Shown one piece after another: positions 2,390 to 25,506 of a stretch of DNA of 25,688 nucleotides. The translations under genes were made by a program, and so were the position numbers. The notes beneath the pieces were generated by a model. It was not told where the DNA came from, did no database searches, and saw nothing but the letters and a program-made list of their open reading frames with translations. Each line of letters opens with the position of its first letter. Within the stretch, counting starts at the first letter, position 1. The DNA lies in the IMG/VR virus record IMGVR_UViG_3300010149_000149, positions 1-25,688 of that record; one strand, 5' to 3'. This DNA is from a virus.

Positions 2390-3751
2390 CTATGCGCTCG
2401 TTATGTTGGTTAGTTTACCCTGTCCCTTAAAGAAGGAACAACCAGTTTCACCGATTGTTCGGTACATACCCTGATTCCCTAGAGTACCTACACCGAATGG
2501 GTTTCCGTTGCTAATACCATCCTCAAAGTATTGGGTTGGCTTCATAACACTCATCCAAACATGGTCAGTATCAAGCATTAATATGTCGCTTAGTTTACTG
2601 GAACCGTTGCCTGTTGCGGGCATATCCTTAGCAGGGATTAATGGTATATCAAAGTATGTTGCGACCCTAAAGCCAGTTTCCCTACCCTTTAGTCCTCTTA
2701 GACCATTGTGGCTTGGAACAACTTCTTTTCTATCCATGAATCTCTCTTGGCTTTGTAATAAGTCACCAATAGCCTGAATAGTATCATATCCAGTCATCAT
2801 AACCTTTGGACTACCGCCGTTCTGCCTAACCTTTCTAATTAAGTCATTTAACAGTGTTAGCGATAGTGGCCTTGCATCTCCAGCCGCATATCCAGAACCA
2901 AAATCAACTTCAGCATCTAAGAATGATGTTGCCGCTGTTGCTACATTTGAACTGATGGTTGGTGCGCGTAGAGTAGTTCCATAAATTGATGAAACATCTG
3001 TTACAACTGCGGAGTTATCTCCATTGTTTGCGCCAGTAGTCAACAAGTTAGCGTTATACATTGCAGCAATTTCAGCCGATGAAGAAACTACCTTGTTTAA
3101 TGAAGTATAGTTCCTTTCAATGTTAGTAGAAGTACCGTCATCATACGATTCTAGGGGCATTACTAGCATCTTGCTTTGTGCTTCTGCGTGTTGTTTCCCC
3201 ATATCTTCGCGGATTAACTGCCTTAAGTCACCAACGCCATCATCAATCTTTGCTAACTCCATTCCTAATTCTGAGAACTCAAACAAGTGAGCAACCGTCT
3301 TTGGACTGGTGTATAGTTTTGCATACTGTGGTGCAATTGGTGGAATATTGTTTCCAGTACCTAGAGATGCGTTTTCAGGCACACCACCAATACTGTCTGC
3401 TCTTGGAGTAGCGGAGCCAGTCGCACCTGTTCCAGTCGAAAACTGGAATCCAGAGCCACCTTCTGCCCTTTCCTTTAAAACCCTCCAACCACTTGTTGTA
3501 TATGGCCTCTTAGCAATAATTGCTAATGGATTTATTTCTTGGTTTAACATTGACCAAACTTTCTGTCCATAAAGGACGTTGTATAGGTCGCCTAATCCGC
3601 TTGCCGCACTAAAGGGGTTTGTTGCAGAGTCGTGAGGGGTTCCAAAACCACCCACTACACCTGCACTCTTCAATAGAGAATTACCCGCAGGGCCGCGTAC
3701 TCCGTATGTTTGCGCTTCTAAGTCTTTCATTGTGTTAATATATTTCGTCAT
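2390..3751 (-). CDS. Major capsid protein, HK97 fold
   Basis: The 453-aa product (from the ATG at 3751) directly follows the prohead protease/scaffold gene, the standard order in HK97-type heads. Features: a short polar N-arm with Gly-rich stretches (about 1-55); a helix with many acidic and basic residues (around 165-200, FSELGMELAKIDD and GDLRQLIREDMGKQHAEAQ) that looks like the spine helix region; a later segment VMMTGYDTIQAIGDLLQSQERF; and a C-terminal ILMLDTDHVWMSVMKPTQYFED typical of P-domain strands. A GTG at 3760 would overlap the upstream stop, but GGAG lies about 8 bases before the ATG at 3751, so I prefer that. The short N-arm suggests that the scaffold comes mainly from the protease fusion. 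Confidence 0.88.
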   Translation of the reverse strand: MTKYINTMKDLEAQTYGVRGPAGNSLLKSAGVVGGFGTPHDSATNPFSAASGLGDLYNVLYGQKVWSMLNQEINPLAIIAKRPYTTSGWRVLKERAEGGSGFQFSTGTGATGSATPRADSIGGVPENASLGTGNNIPPIAPQYAKLYTSPKTVAHLFEFSELGMELAKIDDGVGDLRQLIREDMGKQHAEAQSKMLVMPLESYDDGTSTNIERNYTSLNKVVSSSAEIAAMYNANLLTTGANNGDNSAVVTDVSSIYGTTLRAPTISSNVATAATSFLDAEVDFGSGYAAGDARPLSLTLLNDLIRKVRQNGGSPKVMMTGYDTIQAIGDLLQSQERFMDRKEVVPSHNGLRGLKGRETGFRVATYFDIPLIPAKDMPATGNGSSKLSDILMLDTDHVWMSVMKPTQYFEDGISNGNPFGVGTLGNQGMYRTIGETGCSFFKGQGKLTNITSA

Positions 3752-3756
3752 TTTAT

Positions 3757-4455
3757 TCACTCCCCATACTTCGCCGCAAGGTTATGTATGTCGCCCCACG
3801 ACATTTCAGCCAAATTACCGGCCAATTCTTCTGGAATTTCTACTTGTTGTGCCTTAATGATAGAATCATTTTGTTCTGATAGACTCTTTCTTAGTTCTGC
3901 AAATTCTTCTCTTAGTGTCGAAACTTCTGTCTTAGCGTCATATGATGCTCTATCAACAGATTCCTTTCTAACAGAGTTTTCGTTTGTAAATCTTTCAGCA
4001 AATGTCTTCTGTAGTTTCTCATAAGCAATCTTTTCAAGTTCTTCTGCCTTGTATTGCTCATAAGCCTTTTCTACATTTTCTACGCTTAAGTCAAGAGTTG
4101 CGAATTCAGCATTGTCCCATCCTTTTGCTAATGGCCCCGCCGCTGATTTTTGGTCATGGCCCTTTCCGGCTTCTCCTGTGCCTCCACCGACATTTGAAGA
4201 TGATTTACCACCTGCATATCCGGTTTCAACAGAATCGCCGCTTACTAGAGAAGTGGCCTTCATTTCTTCATCCATAACCTCTTCTTCAGTAAATCCATTA
4301 CCTTCGCCTTCTGTGTCCATATACTCAGACTTTGTTTCATCTTCTGTATCAGAATCATCGTCCTTTAATATGGCCGTTTCAGGCTCCGTCATCTCATTGA
4401 CTTGCTTCATTAAGTCATTAAGTTCTTCTAGTGCTTTCTCCAATCTTTCTGTCAT
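3757..4455 (-). CDS. Probable nested scaffold-only protein from an internal start
   Basis: Inside the protease gene, Met180 (4455) is preceded by GAGGG with a 7-base spacer, as good a ribosome binding site as any in the window. It lies exactly where the protease domain ends and the coiled-coil scaffold begins (MTERLEKALEEL). In-frame nested scaffolds are known in lambda (C/Nu3) and in herpesviruses (UL26/UL26.5). The 232-aa product would retain the MSWGDI segment. It is an inference from position and site strength. Confidence 0.55.
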   Translation of the reverse strand: MTERLEKALEELNDLMKQVNEMTEPETAILKDDDSDTEDETKSEYMDTEGEGNGFTEEEVMDEEMKATSLVSGDSVETGYAGGKSSSNVGGGTGEAGKGHDQKSAAGPLAKGWDNAEFATLDLSVENVEKAYEQYKAEELEKIAYEKLQKTFAERFTNENSVRKESVDRASYDAKTEVSTLREEFAELRKSLSEQNDSIIKAQQVEIPEELAGNLAEMSWGDIHNLAAKYGE

Positions 4456-4992
4456 TTTGTTTCCCTCTTTTTCTTCTTTTAATATATCAAACTTTGCTTC
4501 CGGGTTAATACCTTTTTCACAAATTGTGACTTCGTGTAATTCCAACTTATCTATTTCGTTATATTCACCGAATTCTTTGTTGGTTCTCTTATGTTTTGAT
4601 AATGCTTGACCACCAATACTAAATGAGCGTAATGTTCCTTTTCTAACATTTCTAGCAATTTCTTTTGCCTTTTCTATATCATCTCTCATTTTTATTACTA
4701 CATAAAATCCTACATCATCTACTGCTGTCTTATGTAATACTCCATTTGTATCTCTATGTTTATCTATTACTTCTCCTACTTGAACATTTGAATGGTTAGA
4801 CATTACGTTTCTATATTTATTGTCCTTCATAAATTTTAATACGGCTTCATTAAGTGCTTCTAAGGTTATTAAATCATTTTGCTTATCTACCATTTCTATT
4901 GAAGCATATCCACCTATAATTAAATCATCAGACTTTAGTATATTAAAATTAGTTTCTTCTGTTGCCTTTAGAAGTAATGTTGCTTCGGACAC
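3757..4992 (-). CDS. Prohead protease fused to scaffold domain
   Basis: The 411-aa product opens with a protease of the HK97-gp4 (S78/U35) type: GGYASIEMVDKQND, then His67 in MSNHSN, Ser125 in RSFSIGG and the following LELHEVTICEKGINPEA strand (Glu154 and nearby). Residues 180-410 form a charged, low-hydrophobicity scaffold: a coiled coil (about 180-198), an acidic linker with many D/E, a Gly/Ser linker, then long helices. The last residues, LAEMSWGDIHNLAAKYGE, contain a copy of the tryptophan tag found at the N-terminus of many other proteins here. The start is GTG with GGTGAGGG upstream. It should shape the procapsid, then cleave itself and other head proteins. The active-site assignment is by pattern. 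Confidence 0.87.
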   Translation of the reverse strand: MSEATLLLKATEETNFNILKSDDLIIGGYASIEMVDKQNDLITLEALNEAVLKFMKDNKYRNVMSNHSNVQVGEVIDKHRDTNGVLHKTAVDDVGFYVVIKMRDDIEKAKEIARNVRKGTLRSFSIGGQALSKHKRTNKEFGEYNEIDKLELHEVTICEKGINPEAKFDILKEEKEGNKMTERLEKALEELNDLMKQVNEMTEPETAILKDDDSDTEDETKSEYMDTEGEGNGFTEEEVMDEEMKATSLVSGDSVETGYAGGKSSSNVGGGTGEAGKGHDQKSAAGPLAKGWDNAEFATLDLSVENVEKAYEQYKAEELEKIAYEKLQKTFAERFTNENSVRKESVDRASYDAKTEVSTLREEFAELRKSLSEQNDSIIKAQQVEIPEELAGNLAEMSWGDIHNLAAKYGE

Positions 4993-7940: not shown

Positions 7941-8191
7941 TAATAACCACCTTCTATTCTCTGTATCATACTACCTATTTCCTTCCAATCCATCTTTGCT
8001 ATTGTATCACCATCAGGCATACCTGAACTACTTTCAACAATAGGAGAAGGAGAATCCACTACAACAAACCCCGACTTCATTAACATATTGTCTTTGTTAT
8101 ACACTGTCTGCTCTAATGTTTTTACTTTCTCAACTAACTCTTTTAATAAAAGTAACATTTCATTTTCGTTATTTTCTTCTTTATCACTCAT
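7940..8191 (-). CDS. Small scaffold-like protein with C-terminal MDWKEI segment, 83 aa
   Basis: I place the start at the ATG at 8191 (MSDKEENNENEM), which has GAGGT 7 bases upstream; longer readings run back into the upstream gene. The N-terminal half is an acidic then leucine-rich coiled coil (about 14-36, MLLLLKELVEKVKTLEQTV). A polar Ser/Pro linker follows. The C-terminus IAKMDWKEIGSMI closely parallels the C-terminus of the protease-scaffold (LAEMSWGDIHNL). Coiled coil, linker and shared end suggest that it binds the same capsid surface, as a second scaffold or an assembly cofactor. The function is inferred. Confidence 0.7.
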   Translation of the reverse strand: MSDKEENNENEMLLLLKELVEKVKTLEQTVYNKDNMLMKSGFVVVDSPSPIVESSSGMPDGDTIAKMDWKEIGSMIQRIEGGY

Positions 8192-8195
8192 TTTA

Positions 8196-8663
8196 TCAAC
8201 CTCTTTGTTCGCGGGATGCTTCCCTATCATAATCGTCCATTTCACGATTTGATTCACCTGCATTAGTTCCAGCCTCGCTGAACACTTCTCTTCTTTTGGG
8301 ATAAACTAATCCCCTAATTCTTCTATACATATTTTCATAATCCTTTCTTAATTCTGCCGAAGCAGCAATAATATCTACATTTGATGATTCTAATTTTTCT
8401 AGAAGTTCCTTTTCGCCTTTAGATTTCATCAATCCTAAAGCCCTTAATTCACTAATTAAATCTCCTGCCTTTGTATATTCTTGTCCCAAATATTCAGAAG
8501 GCTGTGCTGCTTGTAATAGTTTCTTAATCTTCTTCTTTTGTTTTTTATTTAATTTCTGCAAAAGGGGGCTATTATCCTTTTTTTCCATTTCTTCAGGTAC
8601 AAATTCTTCTGCAACTGCTGATTCATACTTAGATGCACTTTTTAATACTTCTTGCCAAGTCAT
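8196..8663 (-). CDS. Tagged protein (MTWQEVLKS), 155 aa, unknown
   Basis: It begins with a form of the tryptophan tag, MTWQEVLKSA. The body is helical and very lysine-rich (residues about 36-50, LNKKQKKKIKKLLQAA), with a second helix pair (AGDLISELRALGL, GEKELLEKLESS) and a polar, acidic-basic tail. A strong GGAGG precedes the ATG. The gene overlaps the stop of the upstream tagged gene by 4 bases. The basic central helix could touch DNA. No family is recognised; I infer a capsid-associated or packaged protein. Confidence 0.78.
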   Translation of the reverse strand: MTWQEVLKSASKYESAVAEEFVPEEMEKKDNSPLLQKLNKKQKKKIKKLLQAAQPSEYLGQEYTKAGDLISELRALGLMKSKGEKELLEKLESSNVDIIAASAELRKDYENMYRRIRGLVYPKRREVFSEAGTNAGESNREMDDYDREASREQRG

Positions 8664-9130
8664 TCTGATTCCTCCTTTACTTGTTCTAATTCTTTAAGTT
8701 CACCACTTAATTTATTCCAACCATTTTGTCCATAATGTTCCGAAAACCATTCTGCAAAATTTCCAGAATTTAGTGTGTCTTCTCCTTTACCACTCCAATC
8801 ATCATAGGGTATTTTAACATTTTCTAGTAAATCCATAGCATTTTTGAATATTTCATATTCATCTTGCCATTTATAGGGCTTTTCTAAGAAACTAAATACA
8901 TCCGATTTATCAAAGGAGTATATGTCATCTAAGATATGGAGAAAGAGATTGGTGTCTTCTAAAGTGTTGAGTTTATCATTCCAACCATGTTTTTCCCTAT
9001 GTCTACTTCCCTTAAATGGTGGTGTTGAAGTAGTTCCCAAACCTTCTCGTGCCGCCTTTAAACCTGCCTCTAATCCCCTAGTAAAATCATCAACTGATGG
9101 TGGCATCTTTAACACATTCTCCCAACTCAA
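8660..9130 (-). CDS. Tagged protein (SWENVLKMPP) with TTG start, 156 aa
   Basis: The true start is probably the TTG at 9130: it overlaps the upstream TGA (TTGA), has GGAGGGAGA directly upstream, and makes the product begin with the tag M-SWENVLKMPP. An ATG start 39 bases further upstream would lie deep in the preceding gene. The body has aromatic-rich helices (NLFLHILDDIYSF, YEIFKNAMDLLENV) and an acidic C-terminus. No family is recognised. The PP after the tag also occurs in the 103-aa protein at 23135-23446 and the 701-aa protein. Confidence 0.77.
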   Translation of the reverse strand: MSWENVLKMPPSVDDFTRGLEAGLKAAREGLGTTSTPPFKGSRHREKHGWNDKLNTLEDTNLFLHILDDIYSFDKSDVFSFLEKPYKWQDEYEIFKNAMDLLENVKIPYDDWSGKGEDTLNSGNFAEWFSEHYGQNGWNKLSGELKELEQVKEESE

Positions 9131-10188
9131 TTCTCTCCCTCCAAAATTTCTTGAACTTTTTGTTTCCATTCTTCATCTTCTAATCTTTCCTGATTGGGTT
9201 CATCACCTAATGAGGCCATAAATTCACTTAATTTTGTCTTACTAAGTTCTATATAATCTTCTGTTACTTGTTGGTCTAATTCTCTAAAACTATAGTCTTC
9301 ACGCCTAAATACATCAGTGTCTCTTAAATATCTAATTGCTTCCCATAAATTAGTAATTCCCTTCCACTGTATTTTAATTTGTTTTTTATATTCTTTAATA
9401 GATTCTTTCATTTTATTAAATGCATCTTTAATAGTATTTTGTGTTGTGGTATTATTCCAAAAATTATCTCGATTGTTTTCATCCCACCCTTCTTCTATCC
9501 TACGAATTGAAAGCCTCAAAAGTTTAGATTTCTCAATTGCTTCTTCTGCTAATTGTTCATTAGTTTTAATGGTATTTACTTTGATTTCTAATTCAGTAAT
9601 AAGTTCATCATAATCTTCATTTACTTGGTTTACATCACTCTTATATCGCCTTAACTCAGAATCTTTATCATGATATAATTCTATTATTTTTTTAGCAGTA
9701 GTATCATTAAATTCCCTAGCATAAGGATTATCTAAATATCTTCTTATTCGCTTAACTGTTTTACTAGAAAGATTAGTATGTCCAAAGGCTTGTTTCACTC
9801 CAAATAGCCACAAATCCCAATTTTTATTAAATTCCTCTTGTAAATTTTTTGGAAGACCGCCTTTGTTCTTCATCTCCCTAAGTTTTCTCAAAGATGTGGC
9901 TCTTTTATTATCCTCATCTAATTGAAAATATTTAATTGCGTGTGGTAAATAAGCAGGTAATATCCGTTGTTTTCTTTTAACGCGTTTAACCAAGTCTTTT
10001 ACTTCTTTTGCAAGACTATCTCCAATTCTTTGTTGACGTTTTTCTTCCGATACGCGCTTAGAATCTTTTACTTGAAGGGATTCTATTCTTTTGTCTTCTT
10101 TTACTCTATTTACTCTAAGAAACTCCAAAACATTATCTATACCTTCGATTGGTTCATCCTCTTTTAATATAGTAAAAAAAGAGGACAT
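9127..10188 (-). CDS. Helical protein with degenerate tag (MSSFFTILKED), 353 aa
   Basis: The start is the ATG at 10188, with GGTGA 6 bases upstream and overlap of the previous stop. The N-terminus SSFFTILKEDEP looks like the tag with Phe in place of Trp. The rest is almost entirely helical and highly charged: basic stretches near residues 50-75 (KDLVKRVKRKQR) and a probable coiled coil around 190-240 (ELITELEIKVNTIKTNEQL, KSKLLRLSIRRIEE). It lies two genes after the portal. Possible roles are internal virion protein or head-completion protein; no family is recognised. Confidence 0.75.
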   Translation of the reverse strand: MSSFFTILKEDEPIEGIDNVLEFLRVNRVKEDKRIESLQVKDSKRVSEEKRQQRIGDSLAKEVKDLVKRVKRKQRILPAYLPHAIKYFQLDEDNKRATSLRKLREMKNKGGLPKNLQEEFNKNWDLWLFGVKQAFGHTNLSSKTVKRIRRYLDNPYAREFNDTTAKKIIELYHDKDSELRRYKSDVNQVNEDYDELITELEIKVNTIKTNEQLAEEAIEKSKLLRLSIRRIEEGWDENNRDNFWNNTTTQNTIKDAFNKMKESIKEYKKQIKIQWKGITNLWEAIRYLRDTDVFRREDYSFRELDQQVTEDYIELSKTKLSEFMASLGDEPNQERLEDEEWKQKVQEILEGEN

Positions 10189-13538: not shown

Positions 13539-14975
13539 TTAAAAATTTAACCCCAAAATACCCTGTGGAATGCCCATAGGAGCCGTTTCAGGGCCGTCAA
13601 ATATGCCGAGGTCGTCAATCAACATAAAGGTGTCTGATGGCCCCTGTGTGGCCGCATTTGCTAATGCAAGGCCCATTACTAAGTCATCGTGCGCTCCCAC
13701 TCCTTCAAATTTCCCAGAATCCGTAATTGAAAACATTGATAATTCTTCAATTATGGCATTAGTAGTTGTTCTGCTGTTATTATCCCCATAAGGAAGCACC
13801 ATCTTATTGTTTTCAAAGTTCATTTGAAGATTTAAAATGATTTCTTGTTTCTTTCTTCTAGTTGTGTCAAAGTCCATTACATTCAAATCAGAAATGTTTC
13901 TAAGTTCTTGTGTAAATGCTTTAGCAAAGGTATTAGTTTCATAAAGAATGGCTTCAGGTTCAAAAAGCTTACCAATTATTCTTAATTTATCAATATTCTC
14001 TCTAAATTGAACATTTTTGGCTCTATCTACATGGACTATGGTTTTATTCTTATTTTCATCTACTTCTAATACTATAATTACATTATAGTCACCATCAGTA
14101 GATATAGCCGGGTCTACCCCAATATAGTATTTATATCCTTTATCCTTCCTATGTCCCAGTTTAAGTATAAAATCCCTATTCTTAGATTTTTCCAAATGTT
14201 CTGTAGCAAACAAAGCGGTTCCTGTTGAAATGGGAACACACAAATATTCTCTTGTGAATTTCAAAGAGCCAATTTCTGCTTTTCTTTGCTCAAGTGCGCC
14301 CAAGTCCCATCTTTCAGGCCATAGAGGAATATTCATTGAATTAAGACAAGGATATTCTCGTACTGTATATGCATCGTTTTCTTTCAATTGAGAGAAAATA
14401 TCAGTATATGTAAAGGGAGTGCCAATCATCCTTAAATTTGCAGTATGATGGAGAGTTGGAATCATGTCACCGAAGAACCAATCAGTAACTCTTTGAATAC
14501 CAACCAAACTAAATTCTTTTAAGGGGTCGTCAATAATAATTTCTTGAGGGTGAAGCCCACGAATCTGAGAACCTACTGACCTTTCAAGAACAGAATTACC
14601 ATTAGTCAATGTAATGTTTCCAATAGCCCACCCCTTTGACGGTTTAAATTTCTTTAACTGTGGAATATTAAACATTCTGTCTATCTCTCTCATGTGAACT
14701 AAAGTCTGTTTTTGGTTAGAAGAAATGTAAAGCATTTGGAAAGGAGGTTCTTGGAACACTAAATTCCAAACTACCCAAGAATGCATGAATACTGATTTTC
14801 CATGGTCTCTAGCACATATAATGACAGTTCTATCTGTATTTTGCATGGTATCTAACCATTCTTCCATATATTCAGGGTACATCATTCCACACACATTTTT
14901 AAAGAAATATGGAAAAGATTGTTTAGATAACTCCATATCCATATTATGTGCAAAATTCATTTCTTCTAATTCCAT
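13539..14975 (-). CDS. Terminase large subunit (packaging ATPase and nuclease)
   Basis: The 478-aa product has the classic two-domain layout. The ATPase has an adenine-binding segment before a Walker A CARDHGKS (54-61), Walker B EIIIDDP (145-151) and a coupling motif in RMIGTPF. The RNase-H-like nuclease has YIGVDPAIS with the first acidic residue (near 287), EAILYETN with the second, and a C-terminal GAHDDLVMGLALA with the third. It pumps DNA through the portal and cuts concatemers. GGTGAT precedes the ATG. Neighbours are a 856-aa unknown upstream and the endonuclease-like gene downstream. All key residues appear intact. Confidence 0.93.
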   Translation of the reverse strand: MELEEMNFAHNMDMELSKQSFPYFFKNVCGMMYPEYMEEWLDTMQNTDRTVIICARDHGKSVFMHSWVVWNLVFQEPPFQMLYISSNQKQTLVHMREIDRMFNIPQLKKFKPSKGWAIGNITLTNGNSVLERSVGSQIRGLHPQEIIIDDPLKEFSLVGIQRVTDWFFGDMIPTLHHTANLRMIGTPFTYTDIFSQLKENDAYTVREYPCLNSMNIPLWPERWDLGALEQRKAEIGSLKFTREYLCVPISTGTALFATEHLEKSKNRDFILKLGHRKDKGYKYYIGVDPAISTDGDYNVIIVLEVDENKNKTIVHVDRAKNVQFRENIDKLRIIGKLFEPEAILYETNTFAKAFTQELRNISDLNVMDFDTTRRKKQEIILNLQMNFENNKMVLPYGDNNSRTTTNAIIEELSMFSITDSGKFEGVGAHDDLVMGLALANAATQGPSDTFMLIDDLGIFDGPETAPMGIPQGILGLNF

Positions 14976-17552: not shown

Positions 17553-19658
17553 TTACACTCTCCTAGTTATTACATTTGCGTCTGTTAGTCTACCAAAAAA
17601 ATCTACAGAATTGTATCTGTTTTTAACTAATCTATCATAATGAGAAATAGTTTTTTCGTCTTTTATCATATCACCAATTTTAGCCTTTGTTGCTTCAACT
17701 AATTGATTTCTAATATTAGGATATTCTTTTTCAAACTCTGTAACAAACGAAGGGATTTCTTTTTTTGTTTTATTTTCTTCCATAGCACGAATAAATCTAT
17801 TTCTTCTTCTTATTAAAGTCTTATCTCCGAATATCCAATTTAATTGACACATCATTTCAAGTATATCTTCTAAGGTTAATTGGGTAGGAGAAAAATCAGA
17901 AACGGTAATTGAATCACCATCCATTTCCTTTAATAAACTAACTATTGTTTTCTTTTCAGCAGGTTTAATGGCGGCCTTGTTAGTCTTTAAAAAATTATAT
18001 AATGCATTAACATCTTTTTCTAAATCAATTAAATCTTGCGAAGGATTGCTAGTTAATTGTTCCTTAATTTTTTTATTTAAATTAGTAGATATTTTTCTTC
18101 CTGTATATTTGAAGTTGCCTTCTCCCACAGTAGTAGGTTTATCAAATAAATCAGAAATTTTAACTTTAGACTCCATAATTTCATTAGTTAAAATATCTTC
18201 TAATGTTTCACTAATTTTAGTGGCATCTTGTATTCCAAAGTGATTTGCTAATTTATCTATATCTATTCCTTTATCTATTTCCTTTTCTAATTCTACTAGA
18301 AAATCATAGTTTTCTTCACTGAATAAAAACTTCCCTTCTTCTAAAGTAGTTCTAACACTTTGCATATAACTATCATATATATCTTTTATACCCAAAATAT
18401 CTCCGGGAAATTTTTTATTTGTTGCCAGTGCTTTTTTCCTTGCCGTTGGCGATAACTTGAATAGGTTTCTAAGAGATTCAAAACTGCCTTCGGCAAGTTT
18501 TTCTTCTCTATCGGCTTGTAAGGTTTCATTAATGTCATCTTCTGTAATTTTTTCACCAGTTCTGCTTTTAGTTCTAGTTATTGTCCATTGTCTCAAAAAC
18601 TTATCTCTTAAGTGGAGTTCCTCTCTTTGTTGCTTAGTTCCTTTATCTGACATATACCAATCATCTACATTAAATTTTGGTTCTTTTAATATAACTCTTA
18701 ATGCAGGGTATATCATTGGGGTATTAGCAGAAACCTTCTTGAAAACAGTGCCAAAAAATAAATTGGGTGTCGGGCCTATCATAAATTCATTGGAAGTAAT
18801 GCCTAATTTAACTAATATATTAAGATAATTAAAAACATCAGCGGGATTTGAAATATTTATTTCATAGCCTGTTGTTATTTCAGGTTGGATGGGCATTCCA
18901 GCAGTAATATCTGACCCAACATATTTAACTAATTTAGAAGGAGGTAATTTTAATTTTTTATTTAATGCTTTTTCTAGTTCTATTTTAATATATGGTGGAA
19001 TTTTATTCTCAAACTTACCTTTCTTTTTTATAAATCGTAAATTACCATCTTGTAATCTAACATATCCTCTTACTACTCTAGGTAATTCTAAATTCCTAAG
19101 ATTAGGAAGAGGAATAGAAGCAGATTCAAAACTAAAATCAGTAATATCATAATAATATGCATCAATATATTTATCAGGAGGATTAGAAGAAATTAATTGC
19201 TTAATTTTATTAATATTGATAGAAATGGCTTTCTTTATTTTTCCTCTAATTTGACCTCCTGTGTTTGTTTTATCCACTTGTAAAAATTTCTCAATACCCT
19301 CAAAATCTTCAGCATCAATCAAGCCGTTTAACGTAGTGTCTATGCTCTTGTAACTAACATCTCTATTAGTAAGTTCTGTCATATCAGACGCTAGAGAATT
19401 GGCATTCTTTTGAACATCTTCTATATTCCTTATTTGAGGAAATTGTCTACTTAATCTATCTGTTTCAGTATTAATTATTTGTTGATTCCACTTAGGAATG
19501 TTTCTAATTCCCCGATTAGACTTATTAGTTTGTATTATCTGTCTAACTATTTCTAATCCATTTGGGGCAGATAGATACATTACATACATTAATTTAGTGT
19601 CAGGCAACTCTTGTTCTCCCGTTATAGGGGGAGCCTTTAATAAGATTTGCCTAGACAT
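17553..19658 (-). CDS. Large unknown protein with degenerate tag (MSRQILLKAPP), 701 aa
   Basis: The start is the ATG at 19658, with GGTGA 6 bases upstream; a start 12 bases earlier lacks a site. The N-terminus MSRQILLKAPPI aligns with MSWEDILKAPPI of the protein at 23135-23446, so the tag is present with Trp replaced. The body is charged and mixed helical, with beta-like pieces at about 185-225 (RVVRGYVRLQDGNLRFI) and repeated helix pairs in the C-terminal half. It overlaps the start region of the 856-aa gene and is probably co-translated. No enzyme motif or family is recognised. Together the pair occupies 4.7 kb upstream of the terminase. Confidence 0.73.
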   Translation of the reverse strand: MSRQILLKAPPITGEQELPDTKLMYVMYLSAPNGLEIVRQIIQTNKSNRGIRNIPKWNQQIINTETDRLSRQFPQIRNIEDVQKNANSLASDMTELTNRDVSYKSIDTTLNGLIDAEDFEGIEKFLQVDKTNTGGQIRGKIKKAISININKIKQLISSNPPDKYIDAYYYDITDFSFESASIPLPNLRNLELPRVVRGYVRLQDGNLRFIKKKGKFENKIPPYIKIELEKALNKKLKLPPSKLVKYVGSDITAGMPIQPEITTGYEINISNPADVFNYLNILVKLGITSNEFMIGPTPNLFFGTVFKKVSANTPMIYPALRVILKEPKFNVDDWYMSDKGTKQQREELHLRDKFLRQWTITRTKSRTGEKITEDDINETLQADREEKLAEGSFESLRNLFKLSPTARKKALATNKKFPGDILGIKDIYDSYMQSVRTTLEEGKFLFSEENYDFLVELEKEIDKGIDIDKLANHFGIQDATKISETLEDILTNEIMESKVKISDLFDKPTTVGEGNFKYTGRKISTNLNKKIKEQLTSNPSQDLIDLEKDVNALYNFLKTNKAAIKPAEKKTIVSLLKEMDGDSITVSDFSPTQLTLEDILEMMCQLNWIFGDKTLIRRRNRFIRAMEENKTKKEIPSFVTEFEKEYPNIRNQLVEATKAKIGDMIKDEKTISHYDRLVKNRYNSVDFFGRLTDANVITRRV

Positions 19659-19719: not shown

Positions 19720-19923
19720 TCATTCCGGCCACGTCCTTCTTAACATTGGTTTTCCAAAAGTAGTATATAGTTCCCATTTTGGTTGATTGCCGGGCATTTC
19801 AGCATTTAATTTATCCATCATATATTGTGCTGACCCCAATGTATCAAATTGTTTTACTTTCTTAGTTCCTATAGGCGTGTACCATTCGGTATCACCTGTC
19901 TTTAAAATACTTCTCCAATTCAT
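19720..19923 (-). CDS. Tagged small protein (MNWRSILKTG), 67 aa
   Basis: It begins MNWRSILKTGDTEWY, a clear tag variant, with AAGGAG before the ATG. The remainder, with KVKQFDTLGSAQYMMDKLNAE and PKWELYTTFGKPMLRR, looks like a small alpha/beta domain of about 50 residues. It is followed by a 61-base gap before the 701-aa gene, in which I see no further gene. No family is recognised. Confidence 0.75.
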   Translation of the reverse strand: MNWRSILKTGDTEWYTPIGTKKVKQFDTLGSAQYMMDKLNAEMPGNQPKWELYTTFGKPMLRRTWPE

Positions 19924-19935
19924 TGTTATTTCTCC

Positions 19936-20256
19936 TTAAGCACCGGGAATGTCTCCCCTTCCTCTAAAATCAGTGGTTTCTCTGTCAGTATCAGTATGTT
20001 CATCACCATCTGCCAATTCCATACCACAAACATCACGCCCGTTTACTTTACGTCTATCCCATCCTAGCCCATCTAATCTCTCTAACATCTCTCTTCGATA
20101 CATTTCTGCATCACCTTGTTTACCAAGATAATTAGTTCGTTTAGTGCAATAATATTTGCCATTCTGTTCTCTTGACATTTCTTCATTTCTCCATTTATTA
20201 CAGGCATTACAAAAACCTACCCATTGACTCGCTTTCAAACTGTCAAACCAACTCAT
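19936..20256 (-). CDS. Tagged Cys-containing protein (MSWFDSLKAS), 106 aa
   Basis: The start at the ATG at 20256 is set by AGGTGAT upstream and gives the tag MSWFDSLKAS directly at the N-terminus; a longer reading runs back into the previous gene. After the tag comes a probable zinc site, CNACNKW with a further YYC about 20 residues on. The remainder is polar and charged, with an Asp/Thr/Arg-rich, probably disordered tail (DEHTDTDRETTDFRGRGD). No family is recognised. Confidence 0.75.
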   Translation of the reverse strand: MSWFDSLKASQWVGFCNACNKWRNEEMSREQNGKYYCTKRTNYLGKQGDAEMYRREMLERLDGLGWDRRKVNGRDVCGMELADGDEHTDTDRETTDFRGRGDIPGA

Positions 20257-20264
20257 GCTATCAC

Positions 20265-20726
20265 CTAATATACGCCTATCCAAGTAATAGTTGCGTTAGT
20301 CTCAAATTGCGAAGGGTCGGATTGTCCCTTCATATCTATTTCTATCCTTACTTCTTTAGGATTTACTTTTGTCTTCTCTGAATCAAGTTCATCAGTTTCA
20401 ATATTCTTGACTGTTATATCCATGTCCTTGTGCAAATCCCCCTCTGTGTCTTCAAAGGTCAAGGTAAAACTCAATTCATTGGCATAACTGTAAAGAGATT
20501 TTACTCCCCAACTTCTAAGTTCAGCAACAAAATAGCCCTTAACAGTGGCATCTCCTGCTGTGATGTCTACCGTATCAAAATCATCATATCCTTCCTCTTG
20601 GAGCATACGAGTCAATTCTTTTGGTTTGTTTTTAATTTCAACATCATCTACTGGTATTTCTGTCCAACTCATCTCAACATCTCCTTTACGAATGTCTGAC
20701 TTCAATAGTATATTTTCCCAACTCAT
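20265..20726 (-). CDS. Double-tagged beta-rich protein (MSWENILLKS and MSWTEIPVD), 153 aa
   Basis: Translation from the ATG at 20726 (site GGGGGAG) gives MSWENILLKSDIRKG. A second Met-Ser-Trp (MSWTEI) lies at residue 19 with its own GGAG site 8 bases upstream (start at 20672, 135 aa), so two forms are likely. The body is beta-rich: TVDITAGDATVKGYFVAEL, LSFTLTFEDTEG, MDITVKNIE, EVRIEIDMKG and ATITWIGVY, suggesting an Ig-like or jelly-roll domain. The two successive tags are unique in this window. The function is unknown. Confidence 0.78.
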   Translation of the reverse strand: MSWENILLKSDIRKGDVEMSWTEIPVDDVEIKNKPKELTRMLQEEGYDDFDTVDITAGDATVKGYFVAELRSWGVKSLYSYANELSFTLTFEDTEGDLHKDMDITVKNIETDELDSEKTKVNPKEVRIEIDMKGQSDPSQFETNATITWIGVY

Positions 20727-20920
20727 TGTTTCTCCCCCATAAATGATTGAATTAATTTATTATATTCTTCACTTTTTCCATCATGAATTGTCGCCCAATC
20801 TATCGAAACTCCCGCCATTCCTTCGGGATTGTATTTTTCCATCATTATTTTATTGGCTTTCTCTTCAGCCTCATCGAATGTCATTTTTAATATATCTTTC
20901 CAACTCTTTCTAGTTACCAT
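20723..20920 (-). CDS. Tagged small protein (SWKDILKM at residue 6), 65 aa
   Basis: The start at the ATG at 20920 has GGTGAT upstream and yields MVTRKSWKDILKMTFDEAEEKA. Here the tag follows five residues. The rest is a charged helix (DEAEEKANKIMMEKY) and a second helix near the end (EEYNKLIQSFMGE). It overlaps the next gene by 4 bases. No family is recognised. Confidence 0.72.
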   Translation of the reverse strand: MVTRKSWKDILKMTFDEAEEKANKIMMEKYNPEGMAGVSIDWATIHDGKSEEYNKLIQSFMGEKQ

Positions 20921-20924
20921 TTTA

Positions 20925-21137
20925 TCACCACTCAGTATTCTTTCTAAGCCAATCACCTAACATTTCTAATTTATCAACCACATCATTTAAATCATTAGAA
21001 GTTATATTTGGGTAACGCTCCCGAAATTCCTCCAATTCACTAGTCATTTCATCGGTTATGAATTCACTTGCAAGATAGATGGCATTTATATAATCTTTTC
21101 TCGTCATTCCTACCTTAATTATATCATTCCAACTCAT
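20925..21137 (-). CDS. Tagged small helical protein (MSWNDIIKVG), 70 aa
   Basis: The tag MSWNDIIKVGMTRKDY is followed by two or three acidic helices (AIYLASEFITDEMTSELEEF, LNDVVDKLEMLGDWL). An ATG nine bases earlier (MNNM) is possible; GGAT lies upstream of both, and I chose the one that starts with the tag. The small, acidic helical product has no catalytic motif. No family is recognised. Confidence 0.7.
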   Translation of the reverse strand: MSWNDIIKVGMTRKDYINAIYLASEFITDEMTSELEEFRERYPNITSNDLNDVVDKLEMLGDWLRKNTEW

Positions 21138-21138
21138 A

Positions 21139-21498
21139 TTATTCATTATCCTTTTTCCAACTTTCATAACTAGATTCCATTTTAATTAAATCCTTTAAAT
21201 CTTGTATGAATTCTTCATATTGCTTTCTTTCTTCCTGTGTAAGTTTAACTTGAACAGTTCTGCCCCTTTCATAGTCATCATCAGTAGATATAGCAAATCT
21301 TGTTCCCAATTTAAGAATAGACCTATAATTTTTAATTACTTTCTTAATTCTAATATTTACATTATCTTCATTAGCACTAGTAACATGGGTTGGTAAAAAA
21401 AGTTCATCGTGAAGACCTCTAACATCAGCATTGAATTGTAAATATCTTTCTATAAATAAATCTACTTTGGACATTTTAATTAAATCAAACCAACTCAT
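21139..21498 (-). CDS. Tagged protein (MSWFDLIKMS), 119 aa
   Basis: The ATG at 21498 has GGGGTGA upstream and places MSWFDLIKMSKVDLF at the N-terminus. A mixed alpha/beta middle follows (VNIRIKKVIKNYRSILKLG, RFAISTDDDYERGR, TVQVKLTQEER) and then an acidic helix (YEEFIQDLKDLIKM). YRSILKLG in the middle faintly echoes the tag. No family is recognised. Confidence 0.73.
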   Translation of the reverse strand: MSWFDLIKMSKVDLFIERYLQFNADVRGLHDELFLPTHVTSANEDNVNIRIKKVIKNYRSILKLGTRFAISTDDDYERGRTVQVKLTQEERKQYEEFIQDLKDLIKMESSYESWKKDNE

Positions 21499-21503
21499 TG
21501 TAT

Positions 21504-21734
21504 TCACCCCAATAATATGTTATGAGCCTCTTTGTATGCTTTCTGAGCCTCTTCTATTTCATCTAGACTAATAACGTGAGAATTTATATGTCCTTTACTA
21601 CGTTGGTAGTAACCATCTCTTGTTTGTCGAATAATGATTCTTATTTCATCATTAAAATCATCAAGCATTTGTTGTGTCTCCAAAAGTTTCTGTATTGTCT
21701 TTTCTTCATTCTTCAAAATATCTTCCCAACCCAT
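21504..21734 (-). CDS. Tagged small helical protein (MGWEDILKNE), 76 aa
   Basis: The tag MGWEDILKNEEKTIQ runs straight into a helix (KLLETQQMLDDFNDEIRIIIRQ), a short polar turn and a final helix (SLDEIEEAQKAYKEAHNIL), making a probable helical hairpin. GGGTGAT lies upstream of the ATG. No family is recognised. Confidence 0.74.
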   Translation of the reverse strand: MGWEDILKNEEKTIQKLLETQQMLDDFNDEIRIIIRQTRDGYYQRSKGHINSHVISLDEIEEAQKAYKEAHNILLG

Positions 21735-21740
21735 TCTTCA

Positions 21741-22157
21741 TCACCCTAATACAACAGAAATGTATAGTTTTCCTTTGTTATATGACTCAAGGTAATACTC
21801 CGCACCCAATTCTATTTGTGTAACATCTCTTCTACTTTGTTGACCAATTTCTATTGTGTAGTCAACTTGTGAAGAATCAATTGTTTTAATGGTCTTTCCT
21901 GTGTCATCATCAATAACTTTAATCTCACCTTCTGGTTCAACTTTAATCGCTATATATTCACCCATGTATGAATCGTCTGTAGTTACGTTAAACTGGAAAT
22001 CATCTAAATTCAAATAACAGGCTTTATCATTACCTTCTGGTTCATCTTCACCGGGATAATTCATTTCTCTAACAACCTCATCTGCAATATCTGCCCAATC
22101 GTCCTCCCTACTAGGCATTGGTCTTGCATAAACTTTCAATATATCTTGCCAACTCAT
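21741..22157 (-). CDS. Tagged beta-domain protein (MSWQDILKVY), 138 aa
   Basis: After the tag MSWQDILKVYARP comes an acidic helical linker (DDWADIADEVVREM) and then an about 90-residue beta-rich domain: FQFNVTTDD, YIAIKVEPEGEIKVIDDD, KTIKTIDSS, VDYTIEIG, VTQIELGAEYYLE and KLYISVVLG. GGAGGAG lies upstream. The design of tag, linker and small folded domain is what one would expect of a cargo protein. The domain itself is unassigned. Confidence 0.76.
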   Translation of the reverse strand: MSWQDILKVYARPMPSREDDWADIADEVVREMNYPGEDEPEGNDKACYLNLDDFQFNVTTDDSYMGEYIAIKVEPEGEIKVIDDDTGKTIKTIDSSQVDYTIEIGQQSRRDVTQIELGAEYYLESYNKGKLYISVVLG

Positions 22158-22810
22158 TGTAACTTCTCCTCCATTTTACTTTTAACATCTAACCATACTT
22201 GGGGGTGATTTTGTGCTAATACTTCTTGAACGATTTGCATTTGGGCAACTATAATTGTGTCTTGTCTCTTATGTACTAATTTACCCTTAAATTCTAATAA
22301 ATAACGCAAACTCTCTCTTATTTCTTTGGCTAATTTAGTTAGACTATCAATATATTTTGGGTGCATATCTTCTTCTTGAAAAAGAGTATCTATTTTTTCT
22401 TCAAGCCTAGAAATGTTTCTAGATAATGAACCAATTTCATCAACTTCTTGTCTTGCTATAATTGCTGCCGCTGATTTTTGGACTAAGGGCTGCAAGTGCT
22501 TTTTCATGTGTCTCGCTACTTGAATTTCTGAACAATCTATTGCTATTGCTACAGCAGAAGGGGTTATTTTAGCCTCTTTCAAATGTTGCTCAAAATTTGA
22601 ACGTAGGGGGTGGGTACATAGATTACATCTAGGATTAGATGCTTCTACATAATCTCCCATATGATTTCTTTGATGACGAGCAGAAGTTCCACTAGACCAC
22701 TTCATTTCCTTATCCAACCAATCAGGAGTAATAGCAGAAGATTCTAATTGTTCTTCTAAATTATCTCGATTTTCATGATTGCATAATTTGCATCGCCTTC
22801 TTTTTACCAT
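22154..22810 (-). CDS. Tandem zinc-finger DNA-binding protein, terminase small subunit candidate
   Basis: Two homologous modules follow each other: CKLC...HQRNH and CNLC...HMKKH. Each has a CxxC, about 30-35 helical residues and a closing HxxxH, the second with ITPSAVAIAIDCSEIQVARH reading like a helix-turn-helix. A coiled coil (EIGSLSRNISRLEEKIDTLF) and a helical C-terminal region follow. The combination of zinc/HTH N-terminus and oligomerising coiled coil fits a DNA-recognising terminase small subunit or a regulator. It lacks the tryptophan tag, unlike both neighbours. Start at 22810 chosen because GGTGA lies 8 bases upstream; the ATG at 22825 is an alternative. Confidence 0.75.
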   Translation of the reverse strand: MVKRRRCKLCNHENRDNLEEQLESSAITPDWLDKEMKWSSGTSARHQRNHMGDYVEASNPRCNLCTHPLRSNFEQHLKEAKITPSAVAIAIDCSEIQVARHMKKHLQPLVQKSAAAIIARQEVDEIGSLSRNISRLEEKIDTLFQEEDMHPKYIDSLTKLAKEIRESLRYLLEFKGKLVHKRQDTIIVAQMQIVQEVLAQNHPQVWLDVKSKMEEKLQ

Positions 22811-22814
22811 ATTA

Positions 22815-23138
22815 TTATTCACCATAACCTTTGGGCATCCTAATTTCTTTATATGGTTTTTGCATTACCGTTCTTCTTGGAGAATCACTTAAATTTTCAG
22901 TAATTAATGCAGAATATTCCTTAGAAGCAATACTTAGCCTTTTTAATATATCAGCCAATGTCGCTTGGTATCTTTCATAGTTTTCGCTTTTCATTCCACC
23001 ACTTGTTTTCATTTCTGGTGTTTGTCTCTTAGACCATTCCATATACTTTTGATGCTGTTTATCAAATTCGGCTATTATTTCTTTATCTTCTCTACTATCA
23101 TTTCCTAAACCGTGTTTAATTATATCCTCCCAACTCAT
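22815..23138 (-). CDS. Tagged helical protein (MSWEDIIKHG), 107 aa
   Basis: The tag MSWEDIIKHGLG is followed by charged helices (DKEIIAEFDKQHQKYMEW, YERYQATLADILKRLSIA) and a basic C-terminal segment (SPRRTVMQKPYKEIRMPKG). ADILKRL inside the second helix resembles the tag without Trp. GGAGAAGG lies upstream, and there is a 4-base overlap with the preceding gene. No family is recognised. Confidence 0.74.
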   Translation of the reverse strand: MSWEDIIKHGLGNDSREDKEIIAEFDKQHQKYMEWSKRQTPEMKTSGGMKSENYERYQATLADILKRLSIASKEYSALITENLSDSPRRTVMQKPYKEIRMPKGYGE

Positions 23139-23446
23139 ATTTTTCCTTCTCCTTTTAGTTTGAATGTAAGTATGCCATTATCTACGAATATTGCATTGTA
23201 TCCCATGTTTGCATATAATTTTCTTGCTATTTCCTGAGCCTTCTTCTCTGTCATTTTCAAGTCAGTGAGTTTAATATCTGCATAGGTTTTTTTCTTCTTG
23301 CCCGCTCTTCTTATCACTGGGTCTACCTTATCTCTGAATAAATCAATATATTCAGGTAGAAATAAGTCATCATTAGCGTTATCCTTGAACTCTGATTCTC
23401 TAGGATTTCTTATTGGTGGTGCTTTTAGTATATCTTCCCAACTCAT
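23135..23446 (-). CDS. Tagged alpha/beta protein (MSWEDILKAPP), 103 aa
   Basis: It carries the consensus tag MSWEDILKAPPI with GGAGG upstream. The C-terminal 50 residues (YADIKLTDLKMTEKKAQEIARKLYANMGY, AIFVDNGILTFKLKG) look like a small alpha/beta domain. A Lys-rich patch (RRAGKKKKTY) precedes it. The extended tag APPI is shared with the 701-aa protein. No family is recognised. Confidence 0.75.
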   Translation of the reverse strand: MSWEDILKAPPIRNPRESEFKDNANDDLFLPEYIDLFRDKVDPVIRRAGKKKKTYADIKLTDLKMTEKKAQEIARKLYANMGYNAIFVDNGILTFKLKGEGKI

Positions 23447-23463
23447 CTTATTTTCCTCCTTAA

Positions 23464-23703
23464 CTAATATTTTTCCAATGCAGCATCAATAAGTTTTTGT
23501 CTATTGTCATTATCCAACTGACCCCAAAATACTTGAAATCCAGCGCGATAATAACCCTCCCATTGTTGACCATAATTACCATAAACTTCACCAAACAGCA
23601 TATCTACTAAATCTGCCGGGCGTGTATTAAAATAATACTTCATCAAACTATTCACTATCTTTAATTCATTACTTTCCTTTTTAATTTCTTCTTTCCAACT
23701 CAT
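23464..23703 (-). CDS. Tagged small protein (MSWKEEIKKE), 79 aa
   Basis: It begins MSWKEEIKKESNELKIV, a looser form of the tag. The remainder is aromatic-rich (MKYYFNTRPADLVDML, NYGQQWEGYYRAGFQVFW) and ends with a helix (RQKLIDAALEKY), suggesting a compact folded domain. GGAGG lies before the ATG. No family is recognised. Confidence 0.72.
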   Translation of the reverse strand: MSWKEEIKKESNELKIVNSLMKYYFNTRPADLVDMLFGEVYGNYGQQWEGYYRAGFQVFWGQLDNDNRQKLIDAALEKY

Positions 23704-23706
23704 GTA

Positions 23707-24837
23707 TTAATTCCTCCAATGTCTAAATTTAGAAGAACACTCTGGACAAGACCATTTGCCCTTTATTCTTCTTGTGCCGCCCGTTTCCTTTTTCATAGGA
23801 CTACCACAATTATTGCATTTCTTGCCTTTTAATAAAGATTGCCAAGACTTACCAATATCTTCTTTGATTTCTGTTCTTGATTCTGATACTGGCTTTTCTT
23901 GAAACCCTAAAGCAAGAGCCATCTTTTTCATCATTAATGGAGTAACATTCAATTTATATGCAACAATATCTCCTTCAATATCCGCGATACCTGCTGCAAG
24001 TTTAACTAAGTCATCATCTTTTCCTCCCTTAAAAGGAATAGTTTGTAATGCTTTCATTGCCTTGCCAGCATTATAAGTACCATCTGATTTCCTATACTCT
24101 TCTCCAAGAAGCCTATCTTCAATTTTCCTCCTAACTAAGTCTACTTTAATAATTGCTTGTGCTGCACCGGCATCTCTAACATTTAACATAGGAACACTAA
24201 CTTCCATTGATTTTAGATTGTCTAATAAATCAAAAGTCATTTCTTTTAATCCGCCGGGGCCAAATAGTGCTTTCCACATTGGCGGTTGTCCATTAAAATA
24301 AGACTTAGGTGCGGCTCCTAATGTTTCTTCTGCTTCATCTCCACCTTGGTTTGCAGGTAAAGTTCTCTTTTGTATATATCCTTCTGTTCTATAATGACCA
24401 TGAACAGTTTCCCACTCCCATTTACCCAATTGTTTGTTATAACTGTCTTTAATTGGTACTCTAAACGGTATATCTTTAGGATTATTATTTTTCTCAGTAT
24501 ACATTAAATCCTTTTTAACATCTAATAATTCAACGGCTTCCTTTTCAAATATTAAATCATCCCCCAATAATATTTTATCCATTATTCCAATAATACTCCC
24601 TGCGCCAGTATTATCTGTTGCATTACCAACACCACCCCTGCCTTCAACACCATGCTTTGATAGCATTTCTAATATGTTAGTAGAATTTTTTACAAATAGT
24701 TTAGCCTCATCTACATTTCTTTGTTCGTTTTTCCATTCCATATACGAACCTTTCAGTGATTCACCATCGAAAGATTGAATAATGTCATTTCCGTTTACAT
24801 GTACACGAACCCGCGTCTTTTTTACCTTTTTTGGCAC
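23707..24837 (-). CDS. Unknown protein with C-terminal zinc ribbon preceded by tag-like SWQSLLKG, 376 aa
   Basis: I prefer the GTG at 24837 because GGGAGGT lies 6 bases before it; an ATG at 24861 would put that site inside the gene. The N-terminus is basic (PKKVKKTRVRVHV). The large middle (about 40-320) has a Gly-rich loop, IPFRVPIKDS and a helix-rich end, with no motif I recognise. Then GKSWQSLLKGKK, a tag-like segment, leads directly into a zinc ribbon (C341, C344, C364, C367). The tag plus ribbon resemble a separate small tagged protein fused to the end. It may be a virion-associated or DNA-binding protein. Confidence 0.74.
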   Translation of the reverse strand: MPKKVKKTRVRVHVNGNDIIQSFDGESLKGSYMEWKNEQRNVDEAKLFVKNSTNILEMLSKHGVEGRGGVGNATDNTGAGSIIGIMDKILLGDDLIFEKEAVELLDVKKDLMYTEKNNNPKDIPFRVPIKDSYNKQLGKWEWETVHGHYRTEGYIQKRTLPANQGGDEAEETLGAAPKSYFNGQPPMWKALFGPGGLKEMTFDLLDNLKSMEVSVPMLNVRDAGAAQAIIKVDLVRRKIEDRLLGEEYRKSDGTYNAGKAMKALQTIPFKGGKDDDLVKLAAGIADIEGDIVAYKLNVTPLMMKKMALALGFQEKPVSESRTEIKEDIGKSWQSLLKGKKCNNCGSPMKKETGGTRRIKGKWSCPECSSKFRHWRN

Positions 24838-25021
24838 ATTTACACCTCCCTTTGTCTCCATATTTTATATTAAATAGTTCTGGTTGATTAGAATTAAGTC
24901 CACCGCTTGAAGAAACTACTGTTCCGCCTACCTTCAATAAATGAAACCAAGTAGAGCGTAGTCGCTCGTTTTCTCCCATCCGGTATGCCCCTATAACTGT
25001 TCCCTTACTGCTGTCTAACAT
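24785..25021 (-). CDS. Cys-rich small protein with tag-like TWFHLLKVG, 78 aa
   Basis: The start is uncertain. The ATG at 25021 is 8 bases after the acetyltransferase stop but has a weak site; the ATG at 24979 has GGGG upstream and would bring the tag-like STWFHLLKVGG close to the N-terminus. The C-terminus is basic and cysteine-rich (CKCAKKGKKDAGSCTCKRK), a possible metal site with two C-x-C pairs. It overlaps the next gene by about 50 bases, which is unusual here. No family is recognised. Confidence 0.55.
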   Translation of the reverse strand: MLDSSKGTVIGAYRMGENERLRSTWFHLLKVGGTVVSSSGGLNSNQPELFNIKYGDKGRCKCAKKGKKDAGSCTCKRK

Positions 25022-25029
25022 ATTTGGTT

Positions 25030-25506
25030 CTAACGCCTTAAAACCGATTCCCACTTTTTTTGTTTATTATCCAAAATTAACACTTTAGTTCCTTTTCTAT
25101 TTAAGGCTAACCATTCATCTTGAGTTAATTCCTTTGGTTTTTTTCCAACCTTCCACCCATTTTTATTCCAAAGGCTACTAGAGTCATTTCCAGCATTAAC
25201 TATTCCTATTTTGTTTGTTACCTTAGTTACTCTTTCCATCAATGCCTTTCCTACACCTTTGTTACGATATTGTTGTGCCACTCTAACTCCTTGAACCTTA
25301 AACCAATTATCAAAATCAGTCCAAGAAGCATATCCTATTGGAATATTATCATGAAAAGCAACAATTACTTCTGTAACGGGACTACCAAATCTGCCATATT
25401 TACCCTCTCTAAGAGTATATGATGCTGTATGGGGGTCATCTTCCCAATACTTATTCCAAAGAGATTGTAACTCTTTTTCAGACATTTCTTTAAATTGTAA
25501 TACCAT
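25030..25506 (-). CDS. GNAT-family N-acetyltransferase
   Basis: The 158-aa product has the GNAT core: VTEVIVAFHDNIPIGYASW (strands 2-3), then motif A VQGVRVAQQYRNKGVGKALMERV (71-93) with the acetyl-CoA pyrophosphate loop RNKGVGKA, and the later NAGNDSSSLWNKNGWKVG (about 104-121), typical of motif B. It transfers an acetyl group from acetyl-CoA to an unknown amine. The C-terminal extension ends KKWESVLRR, which resembles the tryptophan tag, placed at the end of the protein. The substrate is unknown; viral GNATs are thought to modify host or own proteins. AGGT lies before the ATG. Confidence 0.85.
   Translation of the reverse strand: MVLQFKEMSEKELQSLWNKYWEDDPHTASYTLREGKYGRFGSPVTEVIVAFHDNIPIGYASWTDFDNWFKVQGVRVAQQYRNKGVGKALMERVTKVTNKIGIVNAGNDSSSLWNKNGWKVGKKPKELTQDEWLALNRKGTKVLILDNKQKKWESVLRR

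Follow-up and report, generated by a model that had tools for sequence, protein, structure and literature searches.

In bacteriophage T4, the internal proteins IPI, IPII and IPIII and the protein Alt enter the head by means of a short N-terminal capsid targeting sequence (CTS), are trimmed, and are injected (PMC9026906). In the giant phage SPN3US, long N-terminal propeptides of head and ejection proteins have been proposed to target the prohead, and a C-terminal propeptide of the protease has been proposed as its targeting signal (PMC7411985). The cargo-loading peptides of encapsulins are short peptides on unrelated cargo that dock inside a shell of HK97 fold (PMC11202242). Here we describe an eight-residue peptide tag, with the consensus M-[STND]-W-x-[DE]-[IV]-[LI]-K, on otherwise different proteins encoded in a 25,688-nucleotide stretch of viral DNA (IMG/VR record IMGVR_UViG_3300010149_000149, positions 1 to 25,688, hereafter the window) and in its relatives. 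We consider it rather probable, judging from the arrangement and conservation of the tag, that it is a capsid address label of magroviruses, by which late proteins would be loaded into the head.

The best reading is that the tag would work like the T4 targeting sequence but is unrelated to it. As in T4, a short N-terminal peptide is common to otherwise different small proteins, a prohead protease and scaffold system adjoins, the set of putative cargo proteins differs among relatives, and an enzyme is included, the ADP-ribosyltransferase Alt in T4 and an acetyltransferase with the tag here. The T4 propeptide, however, is cut by a Glu-type protease, whereas the magrovirus sequence, W-x-x-IL-K, is unrelated and has no Glu-type site; the magrovirus tag is also carried by 159 families (80 partial genomes), occurs at C-termini as well, is matched by the C-termini of scaffold proteins, and is known here from sequence alone. 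SPN3US offers a likeness in its propeptides for prohead targeting and in a targeting signal at the protease C-terminus (both proposed), but its propeptides run to about 110-130 residues (64 for that at the C-terminus of the protease) and carry a cut motif like that of T4, and there is no short common tag. Unlike the encapsulin shell, the magrovirus shell is a viral capsid with genes for portal, terminase, scaffold and maturation protease. The initial annotation of the window, made from its letters and ORF translations, knew of no description of such a tag, and we found none in the accessible literature, which left out most subscription papers.

The motif, spread, constraint and location of the tag are firmly established. 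Within the window, all fifteen start sites named by the initial annotation are real, the sequence at each having been read back. Thirteen of them had been listed as tags; ten have a clean W-x-x-[IVL][IL]K, but those at 23703, 20726 and 20256 are imperfect, and the two degenerate forms, MSSFFTILK (10188) and MSRQILLK (19658), were found as claimed. Although the start sites were right, tag copies or related motifs in 25033-25059, 23827-23850, 3760-3804 and 7943-7993 had been missed (Table 1). The strict tag is present on 9 of the 33 coding-strand open reading frames (ORFs) of the window, against an average of 0.0065, and never more than one, over 2,000 trials in which residues were shuffled within proteins.

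On a wider scale the observation holds well beyond the dozen or more proteins first claimed. A set of 80 close relatives, all partial genomes, was gathered via the terminase; ORFs were called by a simple, length-based procedure, and the ORF counts are thus approximate. The tag is encoded at the start of 451 of the 1,543 coding-strand ORFs of these relatives. Of 539 matches to W..[ILVM][ILVMF][KR], 451 are found among the first 21 residues, which make up 8.5% of the total, and in 383 the W comes third when counted from an in-frame start. When proteins were clustered by the sequence behind the tag, 159 families, many of them singletons, had at least half of their members tagged, and the final residue of the tag is Lys in 143 of the 159. 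An alignment of 137 family representatives conserves only M1, W3 and K8 and has no common column beyond the tag, in agreement with the original description of the bodies as unrelated. Almost no Pfam or PHROG matches were obtained for the tagged bodies, only single zinc-ribbon, KH and similar ones, and the large tagged proteins had no significant match in either collection. The second position of the tag, before the W, is a helix-cap residue (S/T/D/N/G) in 128 of 143 tags (background 29.5%), and the fifth, two residues after the W, is D/E in 80 of 143 (background 17%); from these preferences the tag is probably the start of a helix ([S/T/D/N] cap, W, x, [D/E], [I/V], [L/I], K).

Individual families differ in how faithfully they keep the motif. 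In the family of ORF 8196-8663 the strict motif is present in 52 of 85 members, and most of the others begin with a related W-containing sequence; separately, the body of this protein is joined to larger N-terminal domains in some relatives (L009, L246, L247, L248 and L072; 279-835 amino acids, aa). The positional counterpart of the 9127-10188 protein in relative G005 opens with MAQDFMDILRK.

Purifying selection acts on the tag peptide. Where the bodies of tagged homologues are 31% identical, 95% of pairs have conservative residues at the hydrophobic and Lys positions of the tag, and the seven residues that follow the tag are 25% identical, as expected of the constraint that had been proposed. 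The tag is also confined in its location. In eight near-complete relatives, it is found on 73 of 263 late-strand genes that lie upstream of the gene for the major capsid protein (MCP), at a distance of up to 35 kb, versus 6 of 763 genes elsewhere (Fisher p = 1e-39), so it is not equally frequent on non-structural genes. The terminase, portal, ligase, capsid, protease and 22154-22825 families are untagged, and the tag is absent from replication genes.

A pattern scan of the whole viral collection gave 494 matches to the tag pattern versus 7 for the reversed control in 50 contigs, which had been picked for at least one match to a stricter DNA pattern and were then counted under a looser one. This capsid family is encoded by 39 of the 50 contigs (identity at least 51%), and the single matches in 4 contigs with no capsid gene are probably chance. 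A second tagged lineage was considered and rejected: the tag-rich contigs in which neither capsid nor terminase was matched are pieces of this lineage that hold others of its genes. Among archaeal tailed viruses of Druskaviridae and other groups, the tag was not found in HVTV-1 (nearly the whole record), vir519 (whole) or vir335 (first 40 kb), whose capsid proteins are only distantly related to that of the window.

The analogy with capsid targeting gains support from two proteins of the head module that end in the same core as the tag. In the prohead protease fused to a scaffold domain, the context of W399 is [MLI][SDT]W-x-[DE]-[IVLA] in 33 of 33 sequences, though most of the scaffold domain diverges. 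After the catalytic domain, this protein is modelled as an acidic variable stretch, coiled-coil helices at 304-350 and 353-381, a loop and a short terminal helix, which starts at W399 in a structure model of modest confidence. A small coiled-coil, scaffold-like protein is encoded two genes upstream of the protease-scaffold in the window. The core [SD]-W-x-[DE]-I is common to the tag, the protease-scaffold end (33/33) and the small-protein end (81/82), and it looks like a helix cap. The C-termini of scaffolding proteins bind the coat in several phages, and for this reason we infer that the cargo borrows the docking peptide of the scaffold.

Among the alternatives, the one that survives best is that the tag docks proteins on the portal vertex, the neck or the ejection conduit, the tagged proteins being structural or ejection-machine parts. 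Tagged genes do flank the terminase and portal genes, the tagged 8196-8663 family is very weakly similar to models of head-tail connectors, and in two fragments (G040 and G021) some tagged genes are interspersed with tail genes. We nevertheless think this unlikely, since the two proteins that end in the matching motif, the protease-scaffold and the small scaffold-like protein, do their work within the prohead, a single fixed machine would not need upwards of 150 variable families, and the main tail genes downstream of the MCP are untagged (2 of 188).

A profile scan that did not require a start Met found tag copies in protein interiors and at C-termini, and the label of an N-terminal tag in the initial annotation was too narrow. 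The last 16 residues of ORFs of at least 150 aa contain 53 matches versus 0-7 in control windows, or 16 versus 0-4 after de-duplication, and only one de-duplicated protein is tagged at both ends. In the family of the 384-aa protein (23707-24861) the tag is at the very C-terminus in 32 of 69 members. In the GNAT acetyltransferase family it is C-terminal in 14 of 67 and N-terminal instead in a few members, profile matches being weak or absent for some of the family; the tagged acetyltransferase is possibly an injected modifying enzyme comparable to T4 Alt. The Ser or cap codons of the C-terminal copies are TCA, TCT, TCG and GAT, and because they differ from the N-terminal AGT these copies arose independently. 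A tag with a role at both ends of proteins would be an address rather than an effect on translation initiation or on the N-end.

Table 1. Tag copies, related motifs and head genes of the window, with proposed cut sites
Feature	Position	Strand	Gene and remarks
N-terminal tag, imperfect, MSWKEEIK	23680..23703	-	ORF 23464-23703
N-terminal tag MSWEDILK	23423..23446	-	ORF 23135-23446; strict tag in 10/15 relatives
N-terminal tag MSWEDIIK	23115..23138	-	ORF 22815-23138
N-terminal tag MSWQDILK	22134..22157	-	ORF 21741-22157
N-terminal tag MGWEDILK	21711..21734	-	ORF 21504-21734
N-terminal tag MSWFDLIK	21475..21498	-	ORF 21139-21498
N-terminal tag MSWNDIIK	21114..21137	-	ORF 20925-21137
Tag a few residues after start, MVTRKSWKDILK	20885..20920	-	ORF 20723-20920; best internal match of tag profile
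N-terminal tag with one residue more, MSWENILLK	20700..20726	-	ORF 20265-20726
N-terminal tag, imperfect, MSWFDSLK	20233..20256	-	ORF 19936-20256
N-terminal tag MNWRSILK	19900..19923	-	ORF 19720-19923
Degenerate tag MSRQILLK	19635..19658	-	701-aa protein 17553-19658
Degenerate tag MSSFFTILK	10162..10188	-	Protein 9127-10188
N-terminal tag (M)SWENVLK, TTG start	9107..9130	-	ORF 8660-9130
N-terminal tag MTWQEVLK	8640..8663	-	ORF 8196-8663, 85-member family
C-terminal tag KKWESVLRR-stop	25033..25059	-	GNAT acetyltransferase, ORF 25030-25506; Pfam Acetyltransf_1 3.7e-9
Internal tag KSWQSLLK	23827..23850	-	384-aa protein 23707-24861, between body and C-terminal Cys motif
C-terminus of protease-scaffold fusion, MSWGDIHNLAAKYGE	3760..3804	-	W399 invariant in 33 sequences
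C-terminus of small coiled-coil (scaffold-like) protein, MDWKEIGSMIQRIEGGY	7943..7993	-	M[SDE]W.[DEQ][IL] type ending in 81/82 relatives
NSLLK at MCP residue 31 (N-terminal arm)	3668..3682	-	K invariant, 23/23; proposed maturation cut
FNILK just before protease domain	4933..4947	-	[IVL][IL]K in 33/33; proposed self-cut
KFDILK, protease-scaffold junction	4477..4494	-	Hydrophobic-hydrophobic-Lys (hhK) in 29/33, Lys invariant; proposed self-cut
NMLMK before SG, middle of small scaffold-like protein	8075..8089	-	hhK in 81/82; proposed cut
Large terminase	13539-14975	-	Tag absent in 85/86 relatives
Portal protein	10424-12088	-	Untagged in 92 relatives
Major capsid protein, SU10/HK97 type	2390-3760	-	Pfam SU10_MCP 8.2e-8, phrog_24667; untagged
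Prohead serine protease (S78) fused to coiled-coil scaffold domain	3757-4992	-	Pfam Peptidase_S78 6.7e-10

The initial annotation had argued from synonymous variation in the tag that the peptide is selected rather than the DNA. The codons of Ile5, Leu6 and Lys8 do vary freely, but the Ser2 codon is AGT in 94 of 95 families versus 65% in untagged genes; its usual replacements, AAT, ACT and GGT, are one step from AGT, the other second codons being mostly NNT, and tagged genes have a strong Shine-Dalgarno signal with T at -4. Because of the AGT bias, a gene start composed of the ribosome-binding site (RBS) and ATG-AGT-TGG was probably passed between genes by recombination, the peptide then being kept by selection, and variant tags on near-identical bodies in the 23135-23446 family fit such recombination. 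The same codon bias and Shine-Dalgarno context could be taken to mean that the conserved part is the DNA itself, the RBS and ATG-AGT-TGG forming a recombination or translation-initiation module for late-gene swapping. That is improbable, as the codons at positions 5, 6 and 8 change while the residues stay, C-terminal copies with their TCA, TCT, TCG or GAT codons cannot serve initiation, and the same core stands at scaffold C-termini; the cassette accounts for the spread of the tag, not for its retention.

It is equally improbable that the tag binds a host factor or a degradation system and acts inside the archaeal cell, for instance by marking proteins for breakdown as a degron or by directing their localisation. 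A short amphipathic Trp motif at either terminus would suit such a role, but only late genes in the neighbourhood of the capsid module carry the tag, replication genes lack it, and it has its core in common with the scaffold C-termini. That the tagged proteins are one fast-evolving family with a conserved N-terminus is very improbable even though a common origin of the tag DNA is probable, as the bodies vary in length between about 30 and 822 aa, with an acetyltransferase and zinc ribbons among them, the 137 representatives have no common column behind the tag, and tags stand at opposite ends of proteins within one family.

If the tag is a capsid address label, the C-terminal peptides of the protease-scaffold and of the small protein would share a binding site in the interior of the prohead, in all likelihood on the capsid protein or the scaffold lattice. 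Tagged cargo would use the site of the scaffold and would be co-packaged before DNA entry. The S78 protease would then probably cleave itself, the capsid protein, the scaffold and perhaps the tags behind [IVL][ILM]K, leaving the cargo free in the head, from which it would be ejected with the DNA to act early in the host, as T4 internal proteins do. Trimming of the tag is less certain than targeting, and injection of the cargo is proposed by analogy with T4.

Alignments of the main families of the window were examined for conserved [ILVM][ILM]K sites. The protease family has three, two of them flanking the catalytic domain, and the small scaffold-like protein has a second one in its helix besides that in Table 1. 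Elsewhere there are none in the terminase and several other families and one each in the portal, the ligase and two more families. The sites of the MCP, the protease and the small protein stand at positions at which, by comparison with other phages, cuts would be made during maturation; since the tag ends like them, this suggests that the protease frees the cargo. In HVTV-1 there is no [IVL][ILM]K at the edges of the protease domain, and LMK|S is found at MCP residue 24.

Several observations weigh against the capsid-label proposal. A few tagged genes fall outside the late block, although two of the six look like chance. The C-terminus of the scaffold has the W-x-[DE]-I core but not the last [LI]K of the tag, and it is not among the top tag-profile matches listed. 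Behind the Lys of the tag there is no consensus residue and none of the Ser/Ala enrichment seen at the sites of the MCP and the protease, and a tag at the C-terminus could not be a removable leader in the same way; cleavage of the tag is the weakest step of the proposal. The structure models are poor (predicted local distance difference test, pLDDT, of 42 for the MCP and 52 for the protease). A fold search with a predicted structure gave no significant match, T4 gp21 being first at E 0.4, and profile searches of solved structures returned nothing relevant.

A broader proposal, which we regard as evenly balanced, is that of a general cargo-loading code, in which any late gene that gains an eight-residue, scaffold-mimicking helix at either end would have its product packed and injected. 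Every virus would then have an exchangeable payload, some 6-21 proteins in number, taken from well over 150 available families. The high turnover of tagged families fits factors engaged in an arms race. If the capsid-label proposal is true, sequence alone would mark the proteins that magroviruses, one of the ocean's most abundant virus groups, bring into their hosts, and hundreds of now unannotated proteins would become candidate host-takeover or anti-defence factors. Capsid targeting peptides would have evolved outside the T4 and giant-phage lineages, their mechanism here would be mimicry of the end of the scaffold, and a short portable peptide would be at hand for loading proteins into a viral shell. 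No magrovirus has been cultured, and the tag would open to study with expressed proteins a question that is otherwise out of reach.

The head-gene block of the window lies on the minus strand and comprises terminase, portal, S78 protease and SU10-type capsid protein genes. Magroviruses (order Magrovirales, e.g. Aoguangviridae) are tailed viruses of marine Poseidoniales archaea, the host being that given in the literature on the group, and are described there as having a genome of about 90-100 kb with opposed replication and structural modules. The near-complete relatives of the window are 92-103 kb in length, with a replication module opposed to the structural module (gene map of G005) that encodes family B polymerase, RFC (clamp loader), a TFB-like zinc ribbon and an ATP-dependent ligase. 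Because the size, gene content, low G+C and two opposed modules of these relatives fit, we conclude from their genomes that the window is a fragment of a magrovirus genome.

Some further features of this lineage were noted. The head module also encodes, between the genes for the scaffold-like protein and the protease, an 855-aa protein with an ATP-dependent ligase domain (5013-7580); in relative G005 the replication module has a second DNA ligase, which is complete (L084:984-2528). The untagged, Cys-rich protein 22154-22825, kept in 72 relatives upstream of the terminase region, is by its position a small terminase candidate. One capsid gene (G012:C1:17572-18936, IMGVR_UViG_3300002482_000003) has an in-frame TAG and an open frame of 875 aa, which may reflect either a sequencing error or a protease-capsid fusion. 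A 184.7-kb record (G035, IMGVR_UViG_3300021958_000021) contains two capsid genes and two tag clusters and is probably two magroviruses fused by assembly. A contig in a Maricaulis metagenome-assembled genome (L082, NZMJ01000101.1) is very close to the virus of the window, its terminase being 83% identical, and is probably a magrovirus contig put in the wrong bin.

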